Assembly: GCF_019688735.1 (NCBI RefSeq)
Contig: NZ_JAIFYA010000001.1
Span: forward strand, 620,001 to 684,000
Length of the DNA: 64,000 bases
Reading direction: 5' to 3'
DNA from: Thermosulfurimonas sp. F29
GTDB lineage: Bacteria > Desulfobacterota > Thermodesulfobacteria > Thermodesulfobacteriales > Thermodesulfobacteriaceae
The notes under the pieces were generated by a model that was not told the DNA's origin, ran no database searches, and saw only the letters and a program-made list of their open reading frames with translations. Position numbers and translations under genes: made by a program. Each line of letters begins with the position of its first letter. The stretch's first letter is position 1. Of the stretch, positions 12,433-14,885 are shown one piece after another.

Positions 12433-12475
12433 CTCCCACAAAATACCACAACCCGGAACCCCGGAAAGAGAATCC

Positions 12476-12492
12476 CTACCTTGACAGTAGGA
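12476..12492 (+). promoter_or_regulatory. Operator copy 1 of the isc operon
   Basis: CTACC TTG ACAGTAGGA: an imperfect dyad (CTAC, 7 nt, GTAG) that covers the -35 element of the isc promoter. The same 17-mer with only the three middle bases changed recurs 35 bp downstream. An Rrf2-type regulator encoded in the operon is the likely binder. Confidence 0.7.
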
Positions 12493-12509
12493 ATTAACGG
12501 GATTATTTT
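12481..12509 (+). promoter_or_regulatory. Promoter of the isc operon
   Basis: TTGACA (12481-12486), 17-nt spacer, TATTTT (12504-12509): a near-consensus sigma-70 promoter. Transcription would begin near 12516, inside operator copy 2. The -35 is inside operator copy 1. Confidence 0.75.
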
Positions 12510-12510
12510 A

Positions 12511-12527
12511 CTACCAAAACAGTAGGA
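12511..12527 (+). promoter_or_regulatory. Operator copy 2 of the isc operon
   Basis: CTACC AAA ACAGTAGGA, just downstream of the -10 and over the expected transcription start. It is a second copy of the dyad at 12476. Two sites bracketing the -10 fit repression by a dimeric regulator. Confidence 0.7.
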
Positions 12528-12543
12528 TTTCGGAGGGGCGGTC

Positions 12544-12798
12544 ATGAGGTTCGTGGAGGACATAAAGGCTGATCTGAGCGTGGATCTGGTCTATCGCATG
12601 TGCCCCATGCACCTTCTCGAGCCGGAGGAGTTCCTCCGGAAGCTCCGGGTGGGGCAGATCCTGGAGATTCTCACGGACTACGACGGCGCCCTGGAGGACA
12701 TCCCGGCCTGGTGCGCCCGCAGGGGACAGGAATTTCTGGGCGTGAAAGAAGACGACGGCTTTTTCCGTCTTTACATCAAAAAAATCCGAGAGGTGTGA
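12544..12798 (+). CDS. TusA/SirA-like sulfur-carrier protein
   Basis: An 84-residue protein with the TusA-like fold signature: VYRMCPMHLLEPEEFLRKLRVGQILEILTD corresponds to the CPxP...L..L..G..L.V.. pattern, with the reactive cysteine in CPMHLL where the usual second proline is replaced. TusA proteins accept persulfide sulfur from cysteine desulfurases and pass it to acceptors in the cytoplasm. It is the first gene of the isc operon and is followed after 1 nt by the IscS homologue. A second cysteine (PAWCARRGQ) is in the position often seen in two-cysteine members. A sulfur-relay partner of the isc proteins is the natural inference. Confidence 0.8.
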   Translation: MRFVEDIKADLSVDLVYRMCPMHLLEPEEFLRKLRVGQILEILTDYDGALEDIPAWCARRGQEFLGVKEDDGFFRLYIKKIREV

Positions 12799-12799
12799 C

Positions 12800-13966
12800 A
12801 TGGGAAAGAAGATCATTTACCTGGATCACGCCGCGGCCTCTCCGGTGCTACCGGAGGTATGGGAGGCCATAAGGCCGTATTTTTCCGAAAGGTTCTGGAA
12901 TCCCTCGGCGGTTTACGATCTGGGCACGGAGATCCGGGAAAAGGTCGAGGAAGCCCGTCGCCGGGTGGCCGGACTCATCGGGGCGGAGCCGGAGGAAATT
13001 ATCTTCACCTCCTGCGGTGCGGAGGCCAACAACATGGCCATCAAAGGTCTGGCCCTGGCCCACGAGAAAAAGGGAAAACGCATCCTGGTGTCCGCCATCG
13101 AACATCACTCGGTATTGAACAGCGCCCGTTTCCTCGAACGGCTCGGTTTTGAGATGGCCCTCATCCCGGTGGACTCCCGCGGTCGGGTCACCCCCGAGGC
13201 CCTGCAGAAAATGCTCACCCCGGACACCGTCCTGGTGTCCATCGGTCACGCCAATAACGAAATAGGAACCGTACAGGACCTGAAACCCCTGGTGGAACTG
13301 ACCCATCAGAACGGCACCTTTTTCCACACCGACGCTGTGGCTTCGGTGGGACAGATCCCGGTGGAGGTAAGGGAACTGGGGGTGGACCTCCTGTCCCTTT
13401 CCGGAATCAGCCTTGGAGCCCCCAAGGGAGTGGGAGCCCTTTATGTGCGCAAGGGCGTACGGATCATGCCCCTCATTCACGGAGGTATCCAGGAACGGGG
13501 ATGGAGAGCCGGAACGGAGAATGTCCCGGCCATTATAGGCCTGGGGGTAGCGGCGGAGATCCAGAAAAACCGCCTCCCGCAAAAAATGAAACGCCTTCGA
13601 AAACTCCGGGATCGGCTGGTGGAGGGGATCCTGGAACGGATCCCGAAAACCCATTATACCGGAGACCCTCAAAACAGACTCCCCGGCCACGCCAGCTTCT
13701 GCTTCGAGGGCCTGGAGGGTGAGGCCCTGGTCTTCATGCTTGCGGCCCACGGAATATACGGAAACACCGGTTCCGCCTGTGCCTCCAAGGCCCTCAAGAC
13801 CTCCCCCGTCCTTAAGGCCCTGGGGCTTCCCGAGGTGGTGGCCCAGGGATCTCTGGTCCTCACCCTGGAGGAGGAAAATACCGACGAAGAGGTGGACCGG
13901 GTCCTGGAGGTCCTGCCGCAGGTGGTAGCCCGCCTGCGGGCCATGAGTCCCATCTGGGAGGACTGA
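12800..13966 (+). CDS. Cysteine desulfurase homologue (IscS/NifS family) lacking the PLP lysine
   Basis: A 388-residue class V aminotransferase-fold protein that is clearly IscS/NifS-like from IYLDHAAASPVLPEVWEA through GAEANNMAIKG, EHHSVLN, GHANNEIGTVQDL, HTDAVASVGQ and RGWRAGTENVPAIIG. The active-loop cysteine is present (Cys327, GSACAS). Where family members have S-x-H-K followed by a GPKG-type turn, this protein reads SGISLGAPKG. The PLP-binding lysine is Ser204 and the preceding histidine is Ile203. The final R-x-S-x-G segment is also changed. It therefore probably cannot form the PLP Schiff base. From memory, the Archaeoglobus fulgidus IscS has a comparable loss and is proposed to serve as an IscU partner. 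The intact operon suggests a retained function. Confidence 0.85.
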   Translation: MGKKIIYLDHAAASPVLPEVWEAIRPYFSERFWNPSAVYDLGTEIREKVEEARRRVAGLIGAEPEEIIFTSCGAEANNMAIKGLALAHEKKGKRILVSAIEHHSVLNSARFLERLGFEMALIPVDSRGRVTPEALQKMLTPDTVLVSIGHANNEIGTVQDLKPLVELTHQNGTFFHTDAVASVGQIPVEVRELGVDLLSLSGISLGAPKGVGALYVRKGVRIMPLIHGGIQERGWRAGTENVPAIIGLGVAAEIQKNRLPQKMKRLRKLRDRLVEGILERIPKTHYTGDPQNRLPGHASFCFEGLEGEALVFMLAAHGIYGNTGSACASKALKTSPVLKALGLPEVVAQGSLVLTLEEENTDEEVDRVLEVLPQVVARLRAMSPIWED

Positions 13967-13969
13967 ACG

Positions 13970-14401
13970 ATGCGTCTTTCCACACGCAGTCGGTATGCCA
14001 CGCGCATCCTCCTCGAACTGGCCAAACATTACCCCCGGGGGCCTCTCCAGCTAAAGGAGATCGCCCGCCGCCAGGAACTGTCCCCTAAATATGTGGAACA
14101 GATTCTCCTGCGACTAAAGAAGGCCGGGCTGGTTCAGGGAGAAAGAGGGGCCCGGGGAGGATATCGCCTGGGGCGTCCGCCGGAGGAAATATCCCTCTTC
14201 GACATCCTCTCCGCCACCGGCGAACGATCCCTTACACCCTGCACCGAAGACCCTCCCCGGTGCTACCGGTTTCCCTATTGTGAGGCCAAGGAGGTCTGGC
14301 GGAACCTCAATCAGCTTCTGATCCGCCGGCTGAAAGACCTTTCCCTGTCCGAAATTCTCGAAAAAGGAGGTTCGCATGTTTACGGAAAAATACACCGATA
14401 A
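13970..14401 (+). CDS. iscR: Rrf2-family transcriptional regulator, IscR-like
   Basis: A 143-residue Rrf2 protein. The winged-helix N-terminus (MRLSTRSRYATRILLELA) includes LKEIARRQELSPKYVEQIL as the recognition region and GGYRLGRPPEEISL as the wing. Three cysteines near 88-102 (C-x6-C-x5-C) match the [2Fe-2S] ligand pattern of IscR-like sensors. IscR represses isc genes when loaded with cluster. The gene sits inside the isc operon, 3 nt after the IscS homologue. Two identical dyads lie at the operon promoter, so autoregulation by this protein is likely. Its 3' end overlaps iscU by 26 nt. Confidence 0.9.
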   Translation: MRLSTRSRYATRILLELAKHYPRGPLQLKEIARRQELSPKYVEQILLRLKKAGLVQGERGARGGYRLGRPPEEISLFDILSATGERSLTPCTEDPPRCYRFPYCEAKEVWRNLNQLLIRRLKDLSLSEILEKGGSHVYGKIHR

Positions 14402-14885
14402 GGTCATGGAACACTTCGCCCATCCCCGAAATGTAGGCACCATCGAGGACGCCGACGGGGTGGGAGAGGTGGGGAACCCGGCCTGCGGCGACATGATGAC
14501 CTTTTACATACGGGTTCAGGATGGTCGAATCGCGGAAATTAAGTACAAGACCTTCGGCTGTGTGGCCGCCATTGCGGTGGCCAGTGTGGTGAGTGAACTG
14601 GCCAAGGGAAAGACCCTGGAGGAGGCCAAGGCCCTCAGAAACGAGGACATCGCCCGGGAGCTGGGCGGGCTACCCAAACAGAAATGGCACTGTTCCGTGC
14701 TGGGATTAAAGGCCCTTCGGGAGGCCATAGAGGATTACGAGGCCCGGGTTAGCGGAAAACCCCGACAAAAAACCACCAGACCCAAACGGAAGCAGACCTG
14801 CCCCTCCTGCGGCGTGGAAAATCCCCTTACGGCCCGTTTTTGCATGAATTGCGGGACCGCACTGGAGGGTTCCTGCGGATCCTAA
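14376..14885 (+). CDS. iscU: IscU-type Fe-S scaffold protein with C-terminal zinc ribbon
   Basis: A 169-residue protein. Residues 1-125 are the IscU/NifU-N scaffold with its three cysteines in NPACGDMM, TFGCVAAIA and WHCSVLG, and the conserved Asp after the first cysteine. A Lys/Arg-rich linker leads to a C-terminal rubredoxin-like zinc ribbon (TCPSCGVENPL...FCMNCG) that ordinary IscU lacks. The scaffold assembles [2Fe-2S] clusters for transfer to apoproteins. The LPPVK chaperone-recognition motif is not visible and no hscA/hscB follow. Its start overlaps the regulator gene by 26 nt. Confidence 0.92.
   Translation: MFTEKYTDKVMEHFAHPRNVGTIEDADGVGEVGNPACGDMMTFYIRVQDGRIAEIKYKTFGCVAAIAVASVVSELAKGKTLEEAKALRNEDIARELGGLPKQKWHCSVLGLKALREAIEDYEARVSGKPRQKTTRPKRKQTCPSCGVENPLTARFCMNCGTALEGSCGS

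Follow-up and report, generated by a model that had tools for sequence, protein, structure and literature searches.

A lysine-less IscS homologue encoded with TusA and IscU in Thermosulfurimonas: a possible persulfide relay

How anaerobes without a cysteine desulfurase supply sulfur to their Fe-S clusters is an open question. A gene of Thermosulfurimonas sp. F29 bears on it, in the stretch of 64,000 nucleotides analysed here (the window; contig NZ_JAIFYA010000001.1, positions 620,001 to 684,000). The gene encodes a lysine-less IscS homologue of the IscS/NifS type (12800-13966, + strand, 388 amino acids) in one operon with IscU. What can such a protein contribute to cluster assembly if the lysine that binds PLP is missing, and where would the sulfur come from?

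The lysine-less IscS protein

The residues S201-G202-I203-S204 (codons 13400-13411, + strand) take the place of S203-G204-H205-K206 in E. coli IscS, and an ungapped alignment puts Ser204 at the position of Lys206 and Ile203 at that of His205, as the initial annotation had read the site. The surrounding sequence is L-S-G-I-S-L-G-A-P-K-G-V-G-A-L-Y in the window protein and F-S-G-H205-K206-I-Y-G-P-K-G-I-G-A-L-Y in E. coli IscS, and the flanks LSLSG...APKGVGALYV align without gaps to E. coli IscS, to the Lys-bearing paralogue of the same genome and to more than 200 relatives. A shifted alignment that brings a lysine back was found with none of these sequences and is ruled out, both flanks of SGIS being ungapped.

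The roles of the PLP- and substrate-contacting residues are known from established IscS/NifS structures, in which Arg354 binds the carboxylate of cysteine. By alignment with E. coli IscS, the window protein has lost more than the lysine and histidine first noticed. Thr76, which binds the PLP phosphate, is replaced by Ala74 (codon 13019-13021), the PLP-binding Gln183 by Ala181 (13340-13342) and the carboxylate-binding Arg354 by Val353 (13856-13858). The mobile-loop cysteine, already noted as kept, is indeed present as Cys327 (13778-13780; C328 in E. coli; all codons on the + strand), together with the equivalents of His104 and Asp180 (His102 and Asp178) and a C-terminal tail, RLRAMSPIWED. From the set of residues expected of an IscS/NifS desulfurase, the Schiff-base lysine K206, Arg354 and Gln183 are absent and the mobile-loop cysteine is retained.

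Overall homology and the aminotransferase class V fold are preserved (PF00266, 258.6 bits). A predicted structure model (mean pLDDT 78.7) gives TM scores of 0.86 to 4eb5 and 0.87 to 1p3w, and its top PDB fold match is 4eb5, the IscS of Archaeoglobus fulgidus. The scores fall below the curated NCBIfam cut-offs of TIGR03402 (484.3 against 530.75) and TIGR02006 (357.3 against 643.2). The nearest PDB sequences are variant 'cysteine desulfurase' chains (9wep, 9wer, 9wew, 9wf8, 9wfb, 9wfe, 9wfy); 9wfe carries Q to P and R to V changes at two positions that the window IscS has also lost.

The SGIS motif is common to four genomes of the genus, and the proteins of the three congeners are 81-84% identical to the window IscS. 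With dN at 0.11-0.14 and dS at 1.06-1.15 (dN/dS about 0.11), and with SGIS kept by the congeners, the gene is under purifying selection. The earlier supposition that it functions in a different way is borne out.

The operon and the sulfur genes of the genome

The gene belongs to a tight set on the + strand, with the gene content initially described: a TusA-family sulfur carrier (12544-12798, 84 amino acids; PF01206 65.4 bits against a cut-off of 28.6), the IscS homologue, an Rrf2/IscR-family regulator (13970-14401, 143 amino acids; PF02082 122 bits) and the scaffold IscU (14376-14885, 169 amino acids). The next gene, a TruD-like ORF named from sequence reading, lies on the opposite strand. The set is not a full ISC operon, as none of iscA, hscB, hscA and fdx lies beside iscSU at this locus. 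The motif of E. coli TusA is CPxP; in the window TusA the active-site Cys20 is found in CPMH instead. CPxH occurs in 36 of 86 aligned linked TusA sequences, and the active-site cysteine is present in all 85 of the 85 aligned linked TusAs. IscU is the only one in the genome and has all cluster ligands (equivalents of C37, D39, C63, H105 and C106), as well as a C-terminal zinc ribbon at 14793-14867 (CPSCGVENPLTARFCMNCG) that is retained in the three congeners. A sister genus carries a second, degenerate IscU-like gene after IscU (L013:3074-3466, also at L015 and L014).

The regulator scores 99.6 bits with the IscR model TIGR02010, below the cut-off of 207.55, and has three cysteines in the cluster-ligand region. 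Inspection of the promoter region (12475-12530, + strand) revealed two near-identical palindromic sites, CTACC-TTG-ACAGTAGG at 12476-12491 and CTACC-AAA-ACAGTAGG at 12511-12526, the first of which is overlapped by a -35/-10-like pair (12481-12509). With up to one mismatch, CTACCNNNACAGTAGG sites occur only twice in the 2.35-Mb genome, both at this promoter; exact matches to the palindromes were not found in the congeners' loci. The two CTACCNNNACAGTAGG palindromes are candidate operators, probably bound by the operon's own IscR-like protein.

The genome further contains four TusA genes in all and one SufB with SufC upstream. This SufC-SufB pair (G000:C2:111601-112284, L121) is SMS/SUF-like and has no adjoining SufS-type PLP desulfurase. 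A search for a second, normal cysteine desulfurase was successful: there is a single Lys-bearing enzyme of the IscS/NifS type (C1:237506-238606). It lies beside no IscU, and the IscU dock is missing from it, with neither Glu311 nor the C-terminal tail on which IscU depends. Deletion of the C-terminal tail of E. coli IscS abolishes IscU binding (PMC2854127). Among 30 genomes of the window's family, IscU is found in 9 of the 9 with a Lys-less IscS, one of these cases being a contig-end fragment, and in 0 of the 21 without (Fisher p = 7e-8, with the 30 genomes taken as independent of kinship). IscU in this family therefore goes with the Lys-less and not with the Lys-bearing protein. This exact co-occurrence, together with a docking tail and mobile-loop cysteine in all 105 Lys-less proteins considered below, fits well with the original idea that the protein holds IscU. 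Judged by its residues and its gene neighbours, the window IscS is very probably a partner of IscU and not a cysteine desulfurase. The recurrence of such a protein in many bacteria and archaea, almost always with the gene of a small sulfur carrier at its side, suggests that these cells supply cluster assembly with sulfur by another route.

The Lys-less family and its link to TusA and DsrE

Full-length IscS relatives, 105 of them Lys-less and 117 Lys-bearing, were collected by a genome scan and by surveys of the window's phylum and of the archaeal class and phylum round a Methanosarcinales genome. Since Lys-less proteins served as the queries, the counts describe the group and are not natural frequencies. 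The Lys-less proteins come from at least eight phyla. Bacterial carriers are Thermodesulfobacteriota, Nitrospirota, Chloroflexota, Omnitrophota, Elusimicrobiota, Margulisiibacteriota and a MAG labelled Myxococcota; archaeal carriers are Bathyarchaeota, Thermoplasmatota and the phylum containing A. fulgidus. An odd gene confined to one genus is ruled out by these relatives in many phyla. In trees built by quick and fasttree methods the lysine was lost at least twice, with one bacterial and one archaeal origin, and the loss in the window lineage is not shared by common descent with A. fulgidus.

The loss is concerted. K206 and R354 are missing from all 105 Lys-less proteins, Q183 from 102, H205 from 89 and N155 from 67, and the lysine site is occupied by D (49), Q (26), A (12), S (7), P (4), L (3), T (2), V (1) or I (1). 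The residues C328, S326, E311 and S384 are present in 105 of 105. The same holds for the PLP-ring contacts His104 and Asp180, and other PLP and substrate contacts drift; on account of these two residues, a loss of PLP binding is not taken as certain. Of the residues of the E. coli TusA site, looked at as a signature of TusA binding, W45 and E49 are not conserved in Lys-less IscS, and the change of D52 to E is not specific.

The initial annotation had taken the operon, TusA included, as a regular isc operon, and this did not stand. With TusA and DsrE counted up to 1.5 kb from IscS and in its orientation, one or both were found at 94 of 105 Lys-less loci but at only 2 of 116 Lys-bearing loci; restricted to loci with at least 1 kb of flank on each side, the figures are 85 of 93 and 2 of 103. 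Use of E. coli TusA as the query, as a control for profile bias, placed TusA at 84 Lys-less and 3 Lys-bearing loci, which adds one Lys-bearing locus and otherwise leaves the result unchanged. The ratio of 94 to 2 does not count independent events: its independent part consists of two lineages, bacterial and archaeal, which both show the link, and of its persistence across deep branches despite rearrangement. A tree-corrected test had only two independent pairs and no power. The arrangements are TusA-IscS-IscU, TusA-DsrE-IscS-IscU in archaea, and IscS-IscU-DsrE2-TusA in Dehalococcoidia. No TusA or DsrE lies within 1.5 kb of 11 Lys-less genes, some of which are at contig ends. Both Lys-bearing exceptions (L051 and L061) lack Gln183, L051 also Arg354, and they are transitional. 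The IscS at L051:3920-5155, which retains SGHK, adjoins TusA and is basal to the bacterial Lys-less clade, is a possible intermediate toward that clade.

In the surveyed archaeal class, one IscU gene next to an SND-type IscS encodes a fusion of IscU with a Pyr_redox_2 flavoprotein (L161:150-1481, 443 amino acids), and the IscU ORFs at L162, L167, L170 and L171 are of similar length. The fused pyridine-nucleotide-disulfide flavoprotein could plausibly provide the electrons with which a persulfide is reduced.

Lys-less IscS proteins as such are already known from A. fulgidus and, as IscS1, from Methanosarcina acetivorans (PMC7585200). Their breadth, the concerted loss and the TusA/DsrE operon appear to be new. 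In the open-access papers searched, no report was found of the bacterial Lys-less group, of the concerted loss or of a link between Lys-less IscS and TusA or DsrE; subscription papers, which lie largely outside that set, may differ.

Possible sulfur routes and comparison with known systems

TusA gives the best hint at where a persulfide might come from. We propose that the desulfurase-dead IscS serves as a dedicated docking partner of IscU. A persulfide would be carried by TusA, in many relatives also by DsrE, and handed to the mobile-loop Cys327, which would deliver the sulfur to IscU for cluster building. Either the separate normal desulfurase or inorganic sulfur could charge TusA in the window genome. 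Since most bacterial carriers possess a Lys-bearing desulfurase too, that enzyme could be where TusA picks up sulfur for the Lys-less IscS. For A. fulgidus, and for 8 of the 11 further Archaeoglobi genomes searched, Lys-less IscS is the only kind found (E <= 1e-15), so cysteine is no source by an IscS-type route, and the sulfur on TusA would have to be inorganic. Contact between TusA and the loop cysteine is geometrically possible, because Cys328 lies about 4 A from Cys19 of TusA in the E. coli IscS-TusA crystal (PMC2854127). However, sulfur in E. coli moves from IscS to TusA and not in reverse, and there TusA is a competitor of IscU for binding to IscS (PMC11302665). The unconserved TusA-site residues W45 and E49, the 11 Lys-less genes with neither carrier nearby and a link resting on two origins also speak against the relay. 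PLP may also still bind, in view of His104 and Asp180 and of the A. fulgidus complex, which is drawn with PLP (PMC9769115, figure legend). Weighing these points, we rate the full relay from TusA, with or without DsrE, through Cys327 to IscU, with sulfur flowing in that direction, as somewhat better than an even proposition. Whether it amounts to a widespread second kind of ISC system, in which the scaffold meets no cysteine desulfurase and a dead IscS acts as a TusA/DsrE-fed persulfide relay of at least two origins in many phyla including A. fulgidus, is an evenly balanced call.

The main rival of the relay is that the Lys-less IscS is only a platform for IscU and contributes Cys327 to the ligands of the cluster, that free sulfide is the sulfur source, and that TusA and DsrE serve something else encoded nearby. 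For A. fulgidus the published view is that sulfide is used and IscS donates a ligand (cited in PMC7585200). The A. fulgidus IscS, which is the closest fold to the window model, is without desulfurase activity and its Cys321 ligates the [2Fe-2S] cluster in the crystal, two properties known for A. fulgidus only (PMC7585200, PMC9769115); moreover, SmsCB of Methanocaldococcus jannaschii can use sulfide (PMC12192291). This reading leaves unexplained why TusA/DsrE are neighbours of so many Lys-less genes (94 of 105, in two lineages) and hardly ever of their Lys-bearing relatives, and why the TusA cysteine is retained, and we consider it possible but rather doubtful. A reverse or lateral flow, in which another desulfurase or polysulfide charges the Lys-less IscS, which then feeds both TusA and IscU, would agree with the role of E. 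coli TusA as sulfur acceptor of IscS (PMC2854127) and with the normal desulfurase of the window genome. It is nevertheless unlikely: a dead hub would bring no gain to TusA, which could draw straight from the normal desulfurase, and nine Archaeoglobi genomes have no Lys-bearing desulfurase. A little less likely still is a PLP protein with other chemistry, holding PLP non-covalently through His102 and Asp178 and acting on a different substrate. The conservation of these two residues in all 105 proteins and the depiction of the A. fulgidus complex with PLP (PMC9769115, figure legend) speak for it, and the loss of Gln183, Asn155, His205 and above all, in every protein, the carboxylate-binding Arg354, along with the drift of the lysine position among nine residues, against it. 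A pseudogene or a frame, assembly or sequencing error, for which the missing lysine alone speaks, is ruled out for practical purposes by SGIS in four genomes, the dN/dS of about 0.11 and the tight, intact operon, and the gene is neither an error nor decaying.

If the relay is correct, a TusA/DsrE-fed IscS-IscU pair free of desulfurase would provide such anaerobes with a concrete and testable sulfur route. The puzzling A. fulgidus IscS-IscU complex, so far read as donorless, would gain a source of sulfur, and the Lys-less IscS would represent a pseudoenzyme retained for its docking surface and mobile cysteine alone. For annotation there is a warning in any case: about 100 sampled genes that family models would call cysteine desulfurase encode proteins unable to bind PLP through the lysine bond.

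Among known systems, the minimal MIS and SMS systems (PMC12192291) resemble the window locus in having an IscS/IscU pair without adjoining Hsc, IscA or ferredoxin genes, and the window genome also has a SufC-SufB pair. MIS differs in being described with a working cysteine desulfurase (PMC12192291), and SMS in that the SmsB model scores 168.7 in the window genome, below the cut-off of 650. The E. coli IscS-TusA and IscS-IscU complexes comprise the same three proteins, with Cys328 facing Cys19 of TusA (PMC2854127), but there IscS is an active desulfurase, TusA is the acceptor and tusA lies outside the isc operon. M. acetivorans IscS1/IscU1 is, like the window pair, a Lys-less IscS with its own IscU, although archaeal; four genes described as being without known function cluster with it, and TusA is not named in the paper (PMC7585200). 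Related archaeal loci of the same class have TusA and DsrE beside Lys-less IscS and IscU.

The closest counterpart is A. fulgidus IscS 2 (4eb5, 4eb7, 4hvk, 4r5f), to which the window IscS is 46-48% identical. The likeness had been pointed out in the initial annotation and is upheld by the best fold match and the same SND/ATA/LLL changes. It differs in having SND and not SGIS, in the separate archaeal origin of its lysine loss, in the presence of DsrE, in an operon without IscR and in a genome without a Lys-bearing IscS-type desulfurase. A D199K form has been crystallised (4r5f, from the PDB titles); with the lysine alone restored, Arg354 and Gln183 would still be missing. In both proteins the lysine is replaced (SSND in A. 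fulgidus), Q has become A, R is lost (L in A. fulgidus), the mobile-loop cysteine is kept and IscU adjoins. TusA-DsrE lies upstream of one of the two A. fulgidus IscS copies (TusA-DsrE-IscS-IscU, with DsrE-IscS-IscU at the other). With its replaced lysine, its mobile-loop cysteine and IscU in the same operon, the window IscS is of the A. fulgidus Lys-less type.
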